Part shown: one piece after another, positions 10,193 to 59,008 of the stretch
Layout: every line of letters starts with the position of its first letter
Position numbering within the stretch: the stretch's first letter is position 1
Source: Pelistega ratti
GTDB lineage: Bacteria; Pseudomonadota; Gammaproteobacteria; Burkholderiales; Burkholderiaceae_B
Assembly: GCF_009833965.1 (NCBI RefSeq)
Contig: NZ_CP047165.1
Location: forward strand, 1,612,001-1,676,000
Reading direction: 5' to 3'
DNA: 64,000 nucleotides
Notes under the pieces: generated by a model
What the model was told of the DNA's origin: nothing
Database searches by the model: none
The model's input: the letters and a program-made list of their open reading frames with translations, nothing else
Program-made: the position numbers and the translations under genes

Positions 10193-12079
10193 TTATTGCA
10201 TTCGTTTAATTTGAATTAACAATAATGAAATTGCCGCTGGTGTTACCCCTGAAATTCGACTTGCTTGCCCAATTGTTTCAGGCATATGCTCTTTTAATTT
10301 TTGACGCACCTCAAAAGATAAATTAGTCATTGCATCATAGTCTAAAGAAGTAGGAATTTTTTGATTTTCATAATGAATATGACGATTAACTTCTTCTTGC
10401 TGACGAGCAATATAGCCTGCATATTTTAATTGAATTTCAACCTGTTCAATTTCTGCCAAACTTAATTGTTCTGCTGGATAATAATTTTTTTCAGATGGTA
10501 AATTAAGTAAAGCATCATAGCTCACATTAGGGCGTTTTAAAAGATCAGATAAAAGATAATCTCTCTCTAATGGTTTACCAAATAAAGCAACAGCGTCATT
10601 CTCTTGATAAGTACGCGGACTAACACGAATACTTTTTAAACGTACTACTTCTTTTTCAATATTATCACGTTTACGACAAAAAGCCTCCCAACGGTCATCA
10701 GGTACTAAACCCATACTCCTACCTAATTCTGTTAAACGATAATCAGCATTATCTTCCCTTAAACTCAAACGATATTCTGCTCGAGAAGTAAACATACGAT
10801 AAGGTTCAGTTACGCCTCTAGTAATTAAATCATCAACTAGGACACCTAAATAAGCTTGATCACGGCGAGGAGTCCAAGCCTCTAGCTCATTAACATATCG
10901 AGAAGCGTTTAAGCCTGCTAATAGACCTTGTGCAGCGGCTTCTTCATATCCTGTTGTTCCATTGATCTGCCCAGCAAAAAATAAACCTTTTATTACTTTT
11001 GTTTCAAGACTTGCTTTTAAGCCCCTAGGATCAAAATAATCATACTCAATAGCATAACCGGGTCTTAAAATATGAGCATTTTCTAAACCAGGTAAAGAAT
11101 GAATAAGTTCTAATTGAACATCAAAAGGTAAACTTGTAGAAACACCATTAGGATAAATTTCATGTGTTAATAATCCTTCAGGTTCTAAGAAAATTTGATG
11201 AGAATCTTTATCGGCAAATCGCTTAATTTTATCTTCAATAGAAGGACAATAACGAGGGCCCACTCCATCAATAATACCAGTATATAAAGGTGAGCGATCT
11301 AAACTATTTAAAATAATATCATGTGTTTTTGCATTAGTATGCGTAATCCAACAAGACACTTGCCTTGGATGCATTTCTGCATTTCCCATATAAGAAAATA
11401 CTGGTATAGGATTTGTATCACCCGGTTGTTCTATTAATTTAGAATAATCTATTGTTCTGGCATCAATTCTTGGAGGCGTTCCTGTTTTTAATCTGCCCTG
11501 AGGAAGATTCATTTCCTTTAATCGATGAGCAAGGCTAATAGAGGGGGGATCGCCTGCCCTACCTGCAGAATAATTATTTAGACCAATATGGATAAGTCCA
11601 TTTAAAAAAGTACCTGCTGTTAATACAACTGCTCTTGATCTAAACTTAATACCTATTTGCGTAACAGCTCCAACAACCTTATCACCTTCAAGAATTAAAT
11701 CATCAACAGATTGTTGAAAAATAAAAAGATTTTCTTGATTTTCTAATCGTCCACGAATAGCTTGTTTATAAAGTAAACGATCGGCTTGCACACGAGTAGC
11801 ACGCACAGCAGGGCCCTTAGAAGAATTAAGCACTCTAAATTGAATGCCTCCCTCATCCGCAGCCAACGCCATTGCCCCACCTAGAGCATCAATTTCCTTA
11901 ACCAAATGTCCTTTACCAATACCTCCAATAGAAGGATTACATGACATCTGACCTAAGGTTTCTATATTATGTGTTAATAATAAAGTTTTAGCACCCGTTC
12001 TTGCTGAGGCAAGTGCTGCTTCTGTACCAGCATGACCACCACCAACAACAATAATATCAAATTCTTTAGGATAATTCAT
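10193..12079 (-). CDS. mnmG: tRNA uridine-5-carboxymethylaminomethyl modification enzyme MnmG
   Basis: FAD enzyme that, with MnmE, installs the cmnm5 group on wobble U34. The 628 residues are full length: dinucleotide-binding [19 protein letters not shown] at the N-terminus, the [22 protein letters not shown] signature near residue 47, GTPPRID near 202, and the C-terminal helical domain ending [28 protein letters not shown]. It flanks the putative origin and is transcribed away from it, as in many bacteria where gidA adjoins oriC. Confidence 0.97.
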
Positions 12080-13017: not shown

Positions 13018-13033
13018 TGTTCCACGTGGAACA
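13018..13033. other. parS site 4
   Basis: TGTTCCACGTGGAACA, a perfect palindrome, 17 nt from the first DnaA box. The four sites are spaced about 180, 407 and 329 bp apart. Confidence 0.88.
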
Positions 13034-13049
13034 ATTGTACTAAAATAGT

Positions 13050-13058
13050 TGTGGATAA
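13050..13058 (-). other. DnaA box 1
   Basis: TGTGGATAA on the plus strand, i.e. the consensus TTATCCACA on the minus strand, directly right of parS site 4. Confidence 0.8.
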
Positions 13059-13295: not shown

Positions 13296-13304
13296 TGTGG
13301 ATAA
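13296..13304 (-). other. DnaA box 2
   Basis: Exact TGTGGATAA (TTATCCACA on the minus strand), in the same orientation as box 1. Confidence 0.8.
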
Positions 13305-13732
13305 GTATAAATAATTACTAAAATATTAGTAAGATCAACTTGATGGGTTATATAGTATTAATTTCAAAATAGATATAAATAATTAGCAGATAATATAATT
13401 CTATCGTATTATAACTTTACTACATAATAGATAATTAAAAAGTAATCATATACTATAAGTAATAATTTTAACTTTGCACATAATAATATAAAAAATAGAT
13501 AAATCTTACTATATGCTGATTAAGCTATATCTGACTATATTTAAAACAAGCTTATTATTTATTTTTATCGTATTCCTCAAATAAGACAGTTATATTTACT
13601 CATTTGATAAACCCTATTTCATAGTTAATCCAATCCTAAATACTATTTATAATGATGCTTTACTAATTTATAAACATATCCTTCTTTATCTTTTTTGCAT
13701 TAGTTAAAATCTTTCTATATTAAGGCTATTAA

Positions 13733-13780
13733 TATATATAAATAAGAAGAATAATAAGGCACTGTGGATAACTAGAATAA
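13733..13780 (+). repeat. 48-bp inverted repeat, left arm (contains DnaA box 3 at 13763-13771)
   Basis: The 48 bases are the exact reverse complement of 14233-14280. The arm holds a consensus DnaA box in the same orientation as boxes 1 and 2. Beyond the perfect part, about 13 more bases outward (13720-13732) match imperfectly. In AT-rich DNA that is otherwise decaying, exact identity suggests recent duplication or selection. Confidence 0.9.
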
Positions 13781-14232
13781 TATATTAAATAACTTTATTT
13801 TCAATAAGTTAATATATTTTATATAGAAGAATAACTTAGATAAAATATGTGTATTAAATAGGATATCTAAGATAATAATTAAAAATATATTATTTTTCCC
13901 TCTTTTATAAAAGTAAAATACACATAAAATAATGGATAACTTTACTTATCTTATTTAATTAGGTAGTTTTTAAAAATAAAGTACAATACTATAGACATTT
14001 CTCATTAACTTATCCTTTAAAACATAGTACTTCTTATTTTGAATTAATCATTAAAATATCATTAGTAAAGTATATTTTTTAAAAGTATGGGTATAAGGAT
14101 ACTATTTCTTTTGAATAATCTTTTTTAAACTAAATATAGTTCTTTTATCCTATTTTCATTCAATAATTTTATGCCTATTTATTAAGCCTTTCTATAAAAC
14201 CTAAGATAATGAAATAAAAGATAAAAACCTAT

Positions 14233-14280
14233 TTATTCTAGTTATCCACAGTGCCTTATTATTCTTCTTATTTATATATA
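14233..14280 (-). repeat. 48-bp inverted repeat, right arm (contains DnaA box 4 at 14242-14250)
   Basis: Exact reverse complement of 13733-13780, so its DnaA box (TTATCCACA) faces the opposite way. The two arms enclose 452 bp of AT-rich DNA that could contain the unwinding element. Confidence 0.9.
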
Positions 14281-14407
14281 AAAATAGCTTTAATACCAAT
14301 AAGTTCCTTAAATCAATTAGTTTCAAAAGAAATAACATACAATATAAAATATCTTTAAGTTATTTTGATACTATATATTTATTTAATTAATTGTTTTAGG
14401 AGATTGT

Positions 14408-14836
14408 ATGCAATACGATAATAACAATGTATTTGCCAAAATTTTAAGAGGTGAATTACCTTCTTTTAATGTTTATGAAGATGATAAAACCTATGCTATG
14501 ATGGATATTATGCCTCAGTCTAAAGGACATCTTTTAATTCTTACTAAAGAACCTGCCCCTACCTTTTTTGAACTTTCAGAAGAAGGTGCAAAAGCATGTA
14601 TAGCAACGGCTAAAAAAATTGCGCCTGTTTTAATGAAAATAACTCAAGCGGATGGACTAATCCTAACGCAATTTAATCATGAATGTGCAGGTCAAACAGT
14701 TTTTCATGTTCATTACCACCTGATCCCTCGTTATGCAGGTCAACAAAATGTTCAAGCACACGCAAGAGTAGAAGGTGATAAAGAAGAAATAAAAGCACTT
14801 GCAGAAGCACTACGTCATGCTTTAGCCGAATCATAA
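14408..14836 (+). CDS. HIT-family nucleotide hydrolase/transferase
   Basis: Histidine-triad proteins hydrolyse nucleoside phosphoramidates or AppA-type dinucleotides. The 142 residues have the catalytic HVHYHLIPR motif (about 98-106) preceded by FNHECAGQTVF, and the N-terminal FAKILRGELPSFNVYEDDKTYAMMDI strand typical of HINT-like proteins. The ATG has a good SD (AGGAG). It borders the origin region on the right; a roughly 2.3-kb gap precedes it, so its promoter lies in the AT-rich DNA. Confidence 0.9.
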   Translation: MQYDNNNVFAKILRGELPSFNVYEDDKTYAMMDIMPQSKGHLLILTKEPAPTFFELSEEGAKACIATAKKIAPVLMKITQADGLILTQFNHECAGQTVFHVHYHLIPRYAGQQNVQAHARVEGDKEEIKALAEALRHALAES

Positions 14837-23323: not shown

Positions 23324-23746
23324 TGTTTTCCTCCTTATTGCCTAAGTAGTGATTAATGTTTTCTATTGTAAACCTTATTGTGGATTGATAGGTATGATAA
23401 ATGTTAATACTTAAACTATTTTTGATATAGATTATGTATTGAATGGATAAGTGTTATATACCTTTTAGCAAGAAATAATAAGTAAATAGGATTTATAAAG
23501 ATACTTTATGCGTTATTTTTGATTAATAAAATATTATTTTATAAAGATAGGTATTATTTCCAAATAAAAATAATAATCAATAATTTTGTAACATACCAAT
23601 ATATTAATTGAAGAATTTTATTAAATATTTAATAATAGATACATATTTAATTAATAAGATACAATTTTATTTGTTAATGACACTGGCCACTTGCACATCA
23701 ATAAGGCTTGTCAGTCAGATTTTGCTTATTATTTTGGATCTTGACC
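23324..23746. other. Gene-free upstream region of the two-partner secretion locus
   Basis: Very AT-rich, no coding frame. It must contain the tpsA promoter. A possible small dyad (ACTGGCCACTT) lies at about 23682. I see no perfect -35/-10 pair. Confidence 0.35.
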
Positions 23747-26700
23747 ATGCAAAAAATTTCTCTCTCTAAAATGACAATTGCATTATCGCTTTGTTATGTA
23801 CCCTATATTAGTTATGCTGATATTCAAACAGCTAATACCCATACTCAAGTGATGCATCAAGCGGGTGTAGAAGTTGTTAATATTGCAACACCTAGCCAAT
23901 CTGGTTTATCACATAACCAATACAATCAATATAATGTTAATAAAGCAGGTGCTGTACTTAATAATGGCTTACAAACTAGTCATACGCAGTTAGCAGGTGA
24001 TATTGCCAGAAACCCAAATTTACAAACACATGCAGCAAAAATTATCCTAAATGAAGTAGTAAGCCGTAATCCTTCACATATTGCGGGTAAACAAGAAATT
24101 GCAGGACAGGCTGCCGATTATATCTTAGCTAATCCTAATGGTATTAGTGTTGATGGAGGTGGTTTTATTAATACACCTAGAGCCTCTCTTGTTGTGGGCA
24201 AACCAACGGTAGAAAGTGGTCAATTAATAGGCTATCATGTAGATGGTGAAAAGAGCCTTACAACAAAAGGGGTAATTTCTGGCGTATCAAATCTTGATCT
24301 TATTGCACCTACGGTTAATATTTCTGGTCAAATTCAGGCTGATGGTGGTAATGTTAATATTCTACAAGGACAAAATAAGATTGAACGTGCAGATGATGGA
24401 CAGCTCACTATTAATGTTCTGCCTCAACAAACACAAGTATTAGATGGTAAAGTTGCTGGTAGTATCCAAGCTGGTCGCATCCGTATTCACTCAACTAATG
24501 AACAGGCTAATTTAGCGATTACAAGTAGTGATTTAACGGCAAAAGAAGTTATTATTACTGCGGGTAATGCCAGATTAGATGGTACGGTTTCAAGAAAGAA
24601 TCTCGGTACAGTAAAAGAGATTAAAGAACCGAATAATATTGTTGGTAGTGGCGATAAAAATCATGATAAAGAATCCTTTGTCACAACAAATATTCAAGCA
24701 GACTCTGTTATTGTTATTGCATCAAATCAATTAGATCTAATTGGTACACATATTCAAGCGAAAGATGCGGTATTAATTGGTGGAAAAACACATCTTGGCG
24801 CTCAAAAAACAAAAGAAAGAACATCCGTTACCGAGCACCGTTTTGACACTAAAAAAAGATCTAAAGTAGCTGAGCGTTCATTAACCGTGGTAGAAAAAGC
24901 ACAGCGTACAGTGATCAATGCCGATAAACTTAAACTAGGGGCAATCAAAGATAAACTTACTACTGATGCTGCTCAAGTTAATGTACAGCAATTAACCTTA
25001 CATGGTGAAAAGGGTATTACGCTTCAAGGGGTAAAAGAACATAGTCATTATGATGATAATGTTCAATTTAAAAATCTTGGTAAAAAACGTAAAACAGGTA
25101 GTAGTCATCAAACCGCTAATGCCCAAAATTATGTCGCCACTGAACTTAATGTAAAAGGTGATTTAATTACATCAAGTAATGCTGATGTCATATTTGCAGG
25201 TGCGGTGGGGCGAATTGATGGTGATTTAGTTGTTGAAAATATCGGTAATGTCCAGTTTCAGGCTGAAAAAGTCAAAAATAGTCATGTTGTTGATGATAGA
25301 GAAAAATATTGGGGTGGTTTAGCTGGTTCAAAAACCTTGGGCTCTACTCGTAATGATGCAGAAAAGCATGGTGCGGATTTCACTGTTAATGGTGCTGTTT
25401 TAATAGATGCTAAGAAAGGTGTTAGCGTTTCAGGCAGTCGAGTGATTTCTGGGAAAGATGCTTTAGTGAAAGCCAATAAGGGTGATTTAGTTGTAGATGC
25501 TGTATCCAATGTCAGTGTCTTTGAAGAAAAAGGGCGTAAAGGAACTATTTTTGATATTACGAAAGAACGTACACAAGGTTATAAACTCGTCTATACCAAA
25601 AAAGAGGCTGAGCTTGCTTCTAAATCAAATCTACAGTTAATTACCGATAATAATGTCAATATCACAGGAAGTCGTGTAAAAGCAGGTGGTTTACTTGATA
25701 TTACAGCAGGTAAAAATATTAATATTGATAGTAGTCAGGATTATCTATCGCAAAGTTATAAACAATCTGGTATTGGTTTTACGACTAAGGTTGAAAAACC
25801 TATGGTATCACTGGATAAAGAAGGACTTGCCAAATCATCTATTGATTTATTAGGTGATGTTATTATTGGTAAAGTGAAACGTGATGAATTGGTCAAAAAC
25901 CTAGCAGATAATGTTAAAAATAACTTTAAATTTAAAGGTGAAGCAAGTGCTACATTCGGTTTTTATAACCACTATAAAGTAACAGAAGAGCATACCTATA
26001 ATCCATCATTAGTCAGTGGTGGTAGTGCTAACCTTACAGCAAAAAATATTAATGTAATCGGTAGTAAAGTAGAGGCAACAAAGGGTGATTTATCTATTAA
26101 TGCAGAAAATAAGGTAAATACAAAAGCCTCTCATGATTATGTATATGATTCAACGGTTAATACAGACTTTGGTATTACTAAAACAGTAACAGTAACAGAA
26201 AATAGCCTGACCAATAAAATCTCACTAGGTCTTCAGCACGTTGATAAAGATAAAACCAGTACAAAGGCAAAAGGTAGTCAATTATCTGCGGCTAATGACC
26301 TGACGATTAATGCTAATGAGATGATCAAACATAAGGGCACACAACTTAATGCAGGTCATGATCTCACTGAAAATGCTAAAGCTATTTATCATAGCCCAGA
26401 ATATAATACCGATAGTGATAAAAAGAAAAACTTTGATTTAGGCTTGAGTTTAACAACGACTATTAATAAGGATAAATCAGCAAGTGGTAGTTTAGTATTA
26501 GGTATCTCTGGTGGTCGTGAAAGTAATACTGCTGAAAATGCACAGAGTGCAACAATTACGGCAGGAAATGATATTAATATGAATGCTGAGTATCTTCATG
26601 ATATGGGTACACAATACCAAGGAGGAGGTAATGTTAACCTTAACTCCAATAAACAGATTATACAATCAGCACATAATACAAAATCACATGATAAATTGAC

Positions 26701-28021
26701 TGCTGGTATCACTATCGGTGTGAGTGCAAGTACAAAAGACTTTACAACAACCAATGTTGGTGTGAATGCTGGTGTTCATTTCCAAAAAGACCAGAGCCAC
26801 TCAAGCACAGCTCATAAGGCTAATGTACAAGGTGATAATGTTAATATCGTTACAGGTACATTAAATAGTCAAGCTGATATTGTTGCTAAAAACGATGTCA
26901 ATATTCATGCGGATAAAGCGAATTTTACGCAATCGCAAAATACTAGTTCTCATAAAGGAGGTGGCTTTACCCTTAATGTTGGCGTAGGTAGCATTGTAAT
27001 CCCTGCGGCTGGGGCAGCAATACCATCTGTTGATGTAAAATTTACAGCCAATGCACATCAAGGTAGCCGTACAGATGCTGTATTACATACGGTACAAGGT
27101 GGTAATGATGTTGATATTCATGGGAATGGGGGTGTCAGCTTACAAGGAACAAATGTTGCAGCAGGTAATAATGTTTACATTACAGGCAATACGGTTGAAG
27201 TAAAACCCGGCAATAGCCGAGTGCAAGACCTTAAAGTTAATGTCGGTGGTGGTGTGAGTGTAGGGGCTAATACATCTAGCCTTGGTATTACGGGTAATGT
27301 AAATGTTCAGCATGAAAATAGTACCACTCATTCTGCTGTTTCTATTGATGGTAAAAATGTCAATATTCAAGGTGAAAACGGAGTAACACTAACTGGTGTG
27401 ACATCCAATAGTACAAACCTAAACATTGATGGTGGTAAAGGTGATATTACCTTAAATGCTGCTAAAAATAATGTTAATAAAACAGGTGTTGATGTTGGTC
27501 TATCATTAAGTGGTGGTCTAAGTAATGATAAATGGACACCATCAAAAGGTTCGGGCAAAGTAAATGTTGATGTTGTGCGTAATGAAACACATACAACAAC
27601 TGATCTAAATGCACAAAATGCTACTATTTCAGGTAATAATGCTCACTTTAATGGCAGTAGTATTAATGCTGCTAATGTGATGAATAATCTGACAGGTAGT
27701 GTTACGACAACCCCTGTAACAAATAAAGTAAATGAAACCAGTGTACATCTTTCAGCCAGCGGTAGTGGTAAATTTACCCCTTATCCTGATGGTAAATGGG
27801 CAGAGAGTGCTAAAAAAGATTGGGATAACGGTACAATTGCAGGTGTTAAGGCAGATGTCAATGTTAAGGTGGACTCAACTAAAACAGAAGTAGTGAAACA
27901 AGGTGGTATTAATCCACCAAAACCACAGGTGGTTAAAAACCAAGTGGTTAAAACAAATATTAATGTCACAACAAATCAAAAAGAGCGCCTTGTAAAAATG
28001 ATTAAACAACGTAGACGCCGT
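23747..28021 (+). CDS. Filamentous haemagglutinin-like exoprotein (TpsA)
   Basis: Large secreted beta-helical protein, 1425 residues to the stop at 28022-28024. I take the ATG at 23747 because it gives a clean signal peptide (MQKISLSKMTIALSLCYVPY, cleavage after ISYA) and a TTG-extended start would not. The TPS secretion domain follows (about 28-270) with both hallmark motifs, NPNL (89-92) and NPNGI (129-133). The rest is repeats with hemagglutinin-type segments (about 380-1400; recurrent VNITG, NINVIGSKVEA and DINMNAEY blocks). The C-terminus ends in a basic tail (VKMIKQRRRR) with no CdiA-like toxin and no pretoxin VENN motif. Probable adhesin/biofilm factor exported by the TpsB next door. 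Confidence 0.93.
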
Positions 28022-28047
28022 TAATTCGTTTAAATACTTACTAAAAT

Positions 28048-35629: not shown

Positions 35630-36297
35630 GAATAGATTTTCTATTTCTAAACAAGGACTTATAAAATGATGTTTATTTAATACTATTGGATAAAATACAT
35701 TTTAATATTGTCTAATCTAATAGCAGAGATAGTGGGTAAATTATAAAATCTAGGTAACGTTTAGTATCTTTTCCATTAGGAATACTAGGATCTTGATCTT
35801 TCTATTTTAAGATTAATTTTAGGTTAGTTTTTTCTGGTTTGCTAAAAGTTACCTTCTTACTCTATATAAAAACTCGCCGATTTGTGCATTATTCTCAATT
35901 AGAAAATAAGAGGCATGGCGAGTATGTTATCTAAAATTCTACCGTCATTTATTATTATTTGCAACTTACTATACTTATTTAACAATAATTATTCTATTTT
36001 ATATATTTTCTTCCGTCTCTATTGGCTTAATCTGTTTAGTAACATACGAAAGACTATGCTTTAGCATTCTCCAAAATCAATATTTCTCTTAATAAAAAGG
36101 AAATTTAAAATTTCTTATAGTTTATTCCTTCCCCCATAAACCAATAAAATTTTTATTAATTTGAAATACCCCGTATCCCTTATTCACAAACTTCCCTTCC
36201 TCTGTAAAATCACTAAAAATCCTCAACAAAATCAAGTAGAAACCGAGTAGAATAGTACACTTTTAAATTTTTTTAGTTTAGTCATTAAGGAATTTCT
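35630..36297. other. 668-nt gene-free region; possible minus-strand RNA end
   Basis: No convincing reading frame. It contains a long hairpin at 35872-35923 (ACTCGCC/GGCGAGT plus an imperfect inner stem) followed by TTTTT on the minus strand only, although no minus-strand gene lies upstream of it. The promoter of the Kef-type gene must lie near 36240-36290. Confidence 0.45.
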
Positions 36298-57775: not shown

Positions 57776-59008
57776 TTATTTTTTCTCTTCTAATAGATGT
57801 TCATAACGAGCATCTGTTAGTGTTTTTAAGAATGCAACCAAGGCATCTACTTTGCGATCATTGAGTACATTGGCTTTTAAATCGGTGTAATTTACTGTAT
57901 CAGGGACTTCAGGTTCTCCCCATGGTTTCCCTGTTTCTGGGTTAATTTTACGCATGGGGTGATTAAAGTGATCATAGAATAAGATGACAGTACGTAAATC
58001 TTTAAAAACCCCATTATGCATATAAGGCCCTGTAACCGCAATATTACGCAGTGTTGGGGTTTTGTATTTTCCTTTTTGCTTAATATCTCCATTAACTTTA
58101 GGATTATCTAATAAGCCATTGTCTTTATAATCAGCCCCTAATTGATTTAATGCAATTAATTCTAGGTTGGCTGGAACACCAATATTATGGTATTCAAAAT
58201 TAGTAAAAATCTCGCCTTCACTGTCTTCTGGTTTAAGTGAATGACAGGTTTTACAATTGACATTATTATTCGAGAAAAATAGGGTTCTTCCTAAATCCTC
58301 TAGAGGTGTTAATTCATATTCTCCGCGTAAATAGCGGTCGTATTTAGAGTCAAAAGGGGCAAATTCAGGTGTATGTTCATATGCCATAATGGCATCACCC
58401 ATGGCATCATAGGCTTTATCGGTATTTGTCCAAATATCATCCCCATATATTTTTTTGAATTGTGCTTGATAGTATTCATTTTCGGCAAGACGGTTGATGA
58501 TACTGGCTTTATCAGGCATTTGCATCTCAACAGGGTTAAGAGGTGGTTGCCCTGCTTGCTCTGCCATATCTTTTGCCCGACCGTCCCAGAAAGTCCCCCC
58601 TTTATAGGTTTGACGATTTTCATCATATGAGAACGGTATATTCCATGCACCATACATAGCAGTAGGGGCATTACGGTTGCCAAATGATTTTCCATCTGCT
58701 CCTTCTGATACCATACCATGACGAGTATTAGGGCGATTATCCACAAAAGCATGATTAGGGTTATGGCAACTTGAGCAACTTTGTGTTTGTGGATAAGAAA
58801 GACGGGCATCAAAAAAGAGTGCCTTACCAAGCTCAATCTTATCTTTTTGATGCTGATGAGAAGAGGCATGATGTTTGTGTGGATTTGAGGCTGTCTTTTT
58901 ACCGTCATATTGGTGAGGTGTATGCGTTACTTTTTCTGCATAAACAGGTTGAATACATTGAAGCCCAAGGGTAATGGCGGTTGCCGTCAATAAACGAAAA
59001 GTAAACAT
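57776..59008 (-). CDS. Di-haem cytochrome c peroxidase family protein (CcpA/MauG-like)
   Basis: Periplasmic c-type cytochrome of 410 residues with signal peptide (cleaved after VYA, about residue 24) and two haem-binding motifs, CSSCH (near 78) and CKTCH (near 255). A His-rich stretch (HKHHASSHQHQ) follows the signal peptide and may bind metal. The core motif TPTLRNIAVTGPYMHNG contains the C-terminal residues seen in cytochrome c peroxidases. It is last in the five-gene iron operon, starting one base inside the desaturase stop (TAATG). In the cell it could reduce peroxide or oxidise a partner. Confidence 0.88.
   Translation of the reverse strand: MFTFRLLTATAITLGLQCIQPVYAEKVTHTPHQYDGKKTASNPHKHHASSHQHQKDKIELGKALFFDARLSYPQTQSCSSCHNPNHAFVDNRPNTRHGMVSEGADGKSFGNRNAPTAMYGAWNIPFSYDENRQTYKGGTFWDGRAKDMAEQAGQPPLNPVEMQMPDKASIINRLAENEYYQAQFKKIYGDDIWTNTDKAYDAMGDAIMAYEHTPEFAPFDSKYDRYLRGEYELTPLEDLGRTLFFSNNNVNCKTCHSLKPEDSEGEIFTNFEYHNIGVPANLELIALNQLGADYKDNGLLDNPKVNGDIKQKGKYKTPTLRNIAVTGPYMHNGVFKDLRTVILFYDHFNHPMRKINPETGKPWGEPEVPDTVNYTDLKANVLNDRKVDALVAFLKTLTDARYEHLLEEKK

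Follow-up and report, generated by a model that had tools for sequence, protein, structure and literature searches.

The question raised by this locus is what a long, exact inverted repeat with a DnaA box in each arm represents, and how its arms came to be identical. The window, that is, the whole stretch of DNA analysed, comprises 64 kb (G000:C1:1612001-1676000) of the Pelistega ratti genome G000 (2,326,689 bp, single contig). Bases 13733-13780 and 14233-14280 were confirmed to be exact reverse complements over 48 bp, as the preliminary description had reported, each with the DnaA box TTATCCACA and with 452 nt between them. The exact match stops at these bases on either side of both arms; an imperfect match continues outward to give arms of 63 nt (13718-13780 and 14233-14295, 95% complementary), in which all three mismatches fall in the outer 15 positions (P ~0.011 if uniformly distributed). 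The 48-bp pair is the longest exact inverted repeat in the window among those with arms less than 5 kb apart, and it is far beyond chance: the maximum in 200 first-order Markov sequences derived from the intergenic stretch was 20 bp. Genome-wide, the 63-bp arm matches only these two places.

As long perfect repeats in inverted orientation that enclose ~450 bp of non-coding DNA, the arms could be the ends of a small mobile element (MITE), here a unit of 548 bp. Such a pair occurs only once in the genome, however, no target duplication was visible by eye in the flanks, and the arm is an origin module that occurs singly or in direct pairs in relatives, as described below; with neither multiple copies nor a target-site duplication found, this explanation was rejected as having a negligible probability. 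A cruciform with a structural use, as suggested previously, draws on the single-strand fold, in which the arms pair and which is far better than that of 100 shuffled sequences (z -10.7). Extrusion from duplex DNA is very unlikely with a spacer of 452 bp, and the single or direct copies of the same units in relatives cannot form a cruciform at all; the idea found no support and is regarded as highly improbable.

The region of the repeat is very probably the replication origin (oriC), because it coincides with the switch in GC skew, has a dif-like site almost opposite it on the chromosome, and adjoins mnmG-parAB and parS-like sites; the earlier assignment of the repeat to a probable origin is thereby upheld. 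GC skew was sampled in 24 segments (20 stretches of 20 kb, and the window in four parts). All segments between 465 kb and the 10-kb segment that begins at 1622 kb have a negative skew; from 1632 kb onward, and around the chromosome as far as 349 kb, the skew is positive. Within the window, the cumulative skew reaches its minimum at 21.1 kb, as part of a plateau spanning ~13-21 kb, which locates the switch to ~8 kb; within this resolution the switch falls at the repeat. The dif-like site at 417 kb (three mismatches to the string that we take to be the dif consensus) is 1.12 Mb off in one direction and 1.21 Mb in the other, and the repeat region thus lies at the skew switch, opposite the terminus.

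On the left of the repeat lie mnmG (10193..12079, minus strand) and then rsmG, parA and parB (10181-7791); on the right lies a gene for a HIT-family protein (14408..14836, plus strand), which borders the origin on the right in some members of the family. Palindromes of the type TGTTCCACGTGGAACA, which presumably represents the parS consensus, are found at ~12.69 and 13.02 kb, and further perfect DnaA boxes at 13050..13058 (minus strand, in front of mnmG, 16 bp from the parS-like palindrome 13018-13033) and 13296..13304 (minus strand). A parS-like site near a DnaA box was also seen in G001, G002, G004, G006 (degenerate palindrome) and the Advenella loci L001 and L002. Four of the 53 perfect genome copies of TTATCCACA fall within 1.2 kb at the repeat; genome-wide, the box is not enriched over its reversed control (53 vs 55). 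Two convergent perfect copies of TTATCCACA, 42 bp apart, were noticed at 58737-58796 inside a di-haem cytochrome c peroxidase-like gene. An origin beside dnaA was rejected for this genome, dnaA being at 1427 kb, 200 kb off and away from the skew switch. No GATC cluster for SeqA was seen (4 GATC in 3063 bp vs 4.5 expected). The mnmG/gidA neighbourhood is shared with E. coli, as far as the accessible text of PMC4446571 describes it; the lack of GATC enrichment and the distance of 200 kb to dnaA are not.

Within the named collection, which may omit near records, MnmG is most similar to the proteins of Advenella (80% and 79%), followed by other Burkholderiales, and this points to a low-GC betaproteobacterium, probably of the Alcaligenaceae type. 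A search of the plasmid collection gave partial mnmG matches of 60-80% identity, the five matches listed being chromosome-sized records; another search of that collection gave one unrelated short match and nothing more. Elsewhere in the window, an Rfam abiF RNA (35872-35922; score 38.3, gathering threshold 37) lies behind a 215-aa ORF without a Pfam match, and a 1438-aa ORF (23708-28024) with a TPS secretion domain and haemagglutinin repeats encodes a protein of the two-partner-secretion type.

In the E. coli origin, according to the accessible part of PMC10380432, opening of the unwinding element (DUE) is the task of the left half, which contains R1 and the IHF site, and the middle and right boxes face the other way. 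The window resembles this arrangement, as given there, in having a DUE-like stretch beside R1, an IHF-like site inside R1 and candidate opposite-strand boxes further in. It differs in having a second, inverted core.

In the left core, the AT-rich stretch that would serve as DUE (13718..13762, plus strand; 13733-13762 identical in the right arm) aligns to the stretch beside R1 in G003, G005 and G006, three further genomes of the genus. Next to it lies the perfect box TTATCCACA (13763..13771, minus strand), R1-like in that its strand and its place relative to the IHF-like site are as in relatives, and abutting this a weak DnaA-like box TTATTCTAG (13772..13780, minus strand), at whose inner edge the exact identity between the arms ends; relatives have a weak box of similar sequence at the same place beside R1. 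The predicted IHF site TTTCAATAAGTTA (13799..13811, plus strand), at +36 from R1, has one mismatch to WATCARNNNNTTR, which we take to be the IHF consensus. Genes for both IHF subunits are present in the genome. At +153, a possible decayed opposite-strand DnaA box AAATACACA (13916..13924, plus strand) has two mismatches; in relatives these boxes are clear, TTATNCACA being exact at 153/154 in G003, G005, G028 and others.

The right core mirrors this order. Its predicted unwinding stretch (14251..14295, minus strand; 14251-14280 identical to the left arm) is followed inwards by the inverted R1-like box TTATCCACA (14242..14250, plus strand; perfect), the weak box TTATTCTAG (14233..14241, plus strand) and, at the mirrored +36, a degenerate IHF-like site TTTCATTATCTTA (14202..14214, minus strand) with two mismatches. 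Further in are TTATTCAAA (14110..14118, minus strand) at the mirrored +132 and the opposite-strand box TTATACCCA (14088..14096, minus strand) at the mirrored +154, with one mismatch each. The +132 box is common to this core and the second cores of G003 and G006, and is found in none of the three first cores. A DnaA-box cluster with a perfect R1 beside an AT-rich stretch is thus present, and the preliminary description was right to give importance to the boxes. Its suggestion that the arms flank the unwinding element did not hold, as the putative unwinding stretch lies inside the arms, on their outer sides.

With up to two mismatches allowed, the spaced pattern R1-N27-IHF has two sites in the whole genome, which are the two arms, on opposite strands; the reversed control pattern occurs once. 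An IHF-like site (≤2 mismatches) at +36 together with a box (≤1 mismatch) at +154, as in the right core, was obtained in a fraction of 5e-5 of 40,000 Markov sequences; with the +132 box included, it was obtained in none of the 40,000, but the +132 offset was noticed afterwards and the former figure is the only fair test. By itself, the right-core IHF-like site is expected by chance at 3%; sites with two mismatches are not rare, and they also occur beside R4-like boxes in five loci, three of which are probably one species. Ungapped alignment of the two inner flanks was not significant: 61/148 positions are identical, which 11% of random placements reach, and over the 40 nt next to the arms 20/40, which 8% reach. 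Homology of the cores over their full length therefore rests on the offsets, not on alignment. Since inner parts, although degenerate, lie at about the core offsets in both arms, the repeat most likely represents the end modules of two cores.

The left core has the better IHF site and a decayed inner box, and the right core the better inner boxes and the poorer IHF site, so that a composite origin with shared parts is plausible. In this variant of the two-core reading, the left side would provide DUE, R1 and IHF site, and the perfect box on the right would replace the decayed R4-like box at 13916. The two mismatches of that left-core +153 box fit, as does the strand order, minus then plus: the two halves of E. 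coli oriC, left and right, have this order in the accessible text of PMC10380432, and so do the family loci. The distance is 479 bp instead of 154 or 180, however, and the right arm copies the whole DUE side, which a substitute for R4 would not need. We treat the composite origin as a tentative possibility.

A DnaA-trio system was considered as the main explanation and dropped. Counted as at least three NAN trios within 16 bp of the box, runs of seven are found in both arms (2.2% of the null), and runs of one to six, mostly at chance level, in the other 11 cores, with one strand assignment covered; NTN runs are mostly not significant outside the window arms. The arms resemble the basal unwinding system of PMC8287927, as far as its accessible part describes it, in their tandem DnaA boxes, short spacer and trinucleotide-like AT stretch; they depart from it in that the trio run is not significant in most relatives tested, the strand assignment being uncertain.

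The comparison with related strains, which had been recommended as a check, gave a divided answer: of the other six genomes in the genus, three have kept the unit, and the inverted arrangement was seen in none of the six. In the mnmG-HIT gap, or up to the contig end, G006 has two direct copies of the arm unit, G005 one, and G003 one clear and one degenerate copy. The unit is absent from the gap in G001 and G002, and the contig of G004 ends first. In G001 and G002, two small genomes (loci L097, L098 and L101), dnaA lies a few kb from the gap, with a perfect box just upstream; because the gap has no core and dnaA is close by, their origin may be elsewhere. In G004 (L092/L093, G004:C128) mnmG is split across frames, which may be an assembly or sequencing fault.

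In G003, G005 and G006 the first unit starts just behind an aminotransferase gene. The window does not have this gene, and no remnant of it was detected there by tblastn (E 0.01). In G006 (L094, 5760-9700) a gene that by eye is TnpB-like precedes the aminotransferase gene, and apparent phage-like gene debris lies behind the second core.

Loci with the aminotransferase gene were collected (34 loci: 30 from a homologue search and four of 80 MnmG relatives; some species are probably represented twice, as by L002 and L158). In 11/34, a minus-strand box of the TTATNCACA type is followed after 153-154 or 180-181 bp by a plus-strand box; seven have plus boxes only, one has a minus box only, and the other 15, one weaker site aside, lack both kinds within 500 bp. 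High-GC members such as G138, in which the core is kilobases from the aminotransferase gene, are missed by this count and were found by the pattern scan.

A match to the IHF consensus (≤1 mismatch) lies at +36 in 13/19 cores (window, G005, G006, G028, L001, L002, L040, L156, L157, L158, L159, L160 and L175); in L001, L159 and L175 an imperfect R1-like box begins one base further on, which makes the true offset 35. G003, G020, L036, L161, L162 and L177 have no such match at +36 within one mismatch. In the family, R1-N27-IHF was found in 106/268 genomes at ≤1 mismatch and in 220/268 at ≤2, not all matches being at origins (the G003 match at one mismatch, for example, is plainly elsewhere); by our reading of the table, the reversed control pattern gave two matches at one mismatch. 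By sequence criteria the arm is thus a recognisable module, consisting of a putative AT-rich unwinding stretch, an R1-like DnaA box and an abutting weak box. In many relatives this module appears to be part of an E. coli-like core with R1, an IHF-like site at +36 and opposite-strand boxes at about +154 and/or +180.

Two R1-N27-IHF matches (≤1 mismatch) within 3 kb on one contig occur in 15 genomes of 10 genera (G006, G014, G024, G028, G033, G047, G049, G076, G081, G092, G099, G103, G118, G122 and G140), and all 15 pairs are same-strand. The nearer core lies at most 830 bp behind an aminotransferase homologue in 14 of them, and 5.6 kb away in G014. At ≤2 mismatches, at least nine more same-strand pairs appear in genus g2, each with at least one member at two mismatches. 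The g2 pairs are 1345-1346 bp apart in all nine, and this constant spacing suggests that something conserved, perhaps a gene, lies between the two matches. G003, G088 and G127 have three further same-strand double cores. Among the matches listed, there are thus at least 27 direct pairs in 10 genera, 350-2700 bp apart, and one inverted pair, which is that of the window.

Thirteen pairs were fetched (the 15 without G006 and G028, which had already been examined), and in 12 both cores have boxes (≤1 mismatch) at +153 to +155 or +178 to +181; the exception is G092, whose two cores both lack a box near +154 or +180. The 13 stretches have a GC content of 35-59%, with nine of the 12 at ≥48%; the box pattern therefore cannot be attributed to AT-richness. 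In the genera g6 (four genomes) and g43 (two genomes), DUE-R1 modules are 93-100% identical between first cores and 84-98% between second cores, and 68-81% within a genome. Judged by these identities, both cores are clearly orthologous across species, old and long kept, and no other observation speaks as strongly for a useful second core. In G117, G045 and G164, of the Advenella-like genus g40, R1-N27-IHF matches once more 67-89 kb from the core; this second match is on the other strand and has a conserved sequence of its own, and we can only guess that it is perhaps a DnaA-regulating locus of the datA or DARS type.

The identity of the arms had been taken to point to selection, conversion or recent copying, and this is borne out by 48/48 identical positions beside inner flanks that cannot be aligned. 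Over 52 columns, the two DUE-R1 modules within a genome are 96% identical in the window, 92% in G006 and 81% in G003; between these three genomes, first cores are 85-87% and second cores 74-77% identical, and the inner parts of the cores reach 55-62%, the background of gapped AT-rich alignment. At a divergence of ~14%, as between first cores, simple arithmetic gives 48/48 about once in 1400. Because this is so improbable, the right module would be either a recent copy of the left one or held similar to it by conversion; the 48-bp identity suggests recent copying, or gene conversion together with constraint. Likeness within a genome is not general among the modules compared: G003 and g23 are without a clear sign of it (in g23, 81-89% within vs 78-87% between genomes), and g42 is mixed (88 and 92% within a genome, 86% between first and 97% between second cores).

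Recent copying might also mean that the left core alone is the working origin and the right arm a young, roleless inverted duplication of ~63 bp. Identity is indeed confined to 63 bp, the inner flanks align no better than background, and relatives with a single core exist (G005 and g40). This account leaves aside the boxes at the mirrored +132 and +154 and the IHF-like site at +36, the concentration of the three mismatches in the outer 15 of 63 bp (P ~0.011), and the position of the right arm, which is about that of the second core of G006 (core spacing 479 vs 497 bp; 892 bp in G003). The right arm looks like the second core of relatives, and we think it rather unlikely that it has no role.

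The arms are, in our judgement, probably the DUE-R1 modules of two oriC-core copies with their unwinding sides outward, the second core having been flipped in this lineage. The module, the offsets that recur in the family, the two copies and the inversion can be read directly from the DNA. By analogy with E. coli, DnaA would bind R1 and the weak box of each core, and IHF would bend the DNA on the inner side of each. The outer AT-rich stretches would then melt, so that the origin, 0.6 kb long, would have a DUE at either end, and the helicase could be loaded at either or both cores. The second core probably arose from a same-strand second core as in G003 and G006, was then flipped in this lineage, and owes the identity of its outer module with the first, whether preserved or newly produced, to gene conversion and constraint. 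Both cores may be functional, and each might load one helicase. A bidirectional start set by the symmetry, which the preliminary description had proposed, may apply. The more specific possibility of a symmetric two-sided origin, in which the inverted cores would open oppositely and load one helicase each on opposite strands, is considered doubtful.

In a literature search (with DoriC and most subscription papers outside its scope) no double or inverted oriC core was found for this family. The putative double origins in bacterial chromosomes of Gao 2015 (PMC4403523) and the duplicated oriC of BCG Pasteur (PMC2448323) likewise involve more than one origin copy per chromosome, but as described in the accessible parts of these sources they are separate origins or duplications of tens of kb, whereas the family cores are core-sized, lie 350-2700 bp apart in one origin region and, in the window, are inverted. 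The window has two DnaA-box clusters in one origin region, as in the bipartite origins of B. subtilis and H. pylori. Those origins have parts with different roles, placed to either side of dnaA. The window parts, unlike them, are copies, and each is presumed to have a DUE of its own.

The general view is that bacteria use a single oriC on each chromosome, and loading of the second helicase is described as unclear in the accessible part of PMC10201434. A repeatedly doubled origin core, present as a mirror image in one species, provides a natural experiment that bears on the use of one DUE or both and on the relevance of orientation, and the finding can be checked with ordinary origin assays. 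If the symmetric origin were true, bidirectionality would be written into the DNA by an inverted duplication, and the same-strand double cores of relatives would be its asymmetric counterpart.
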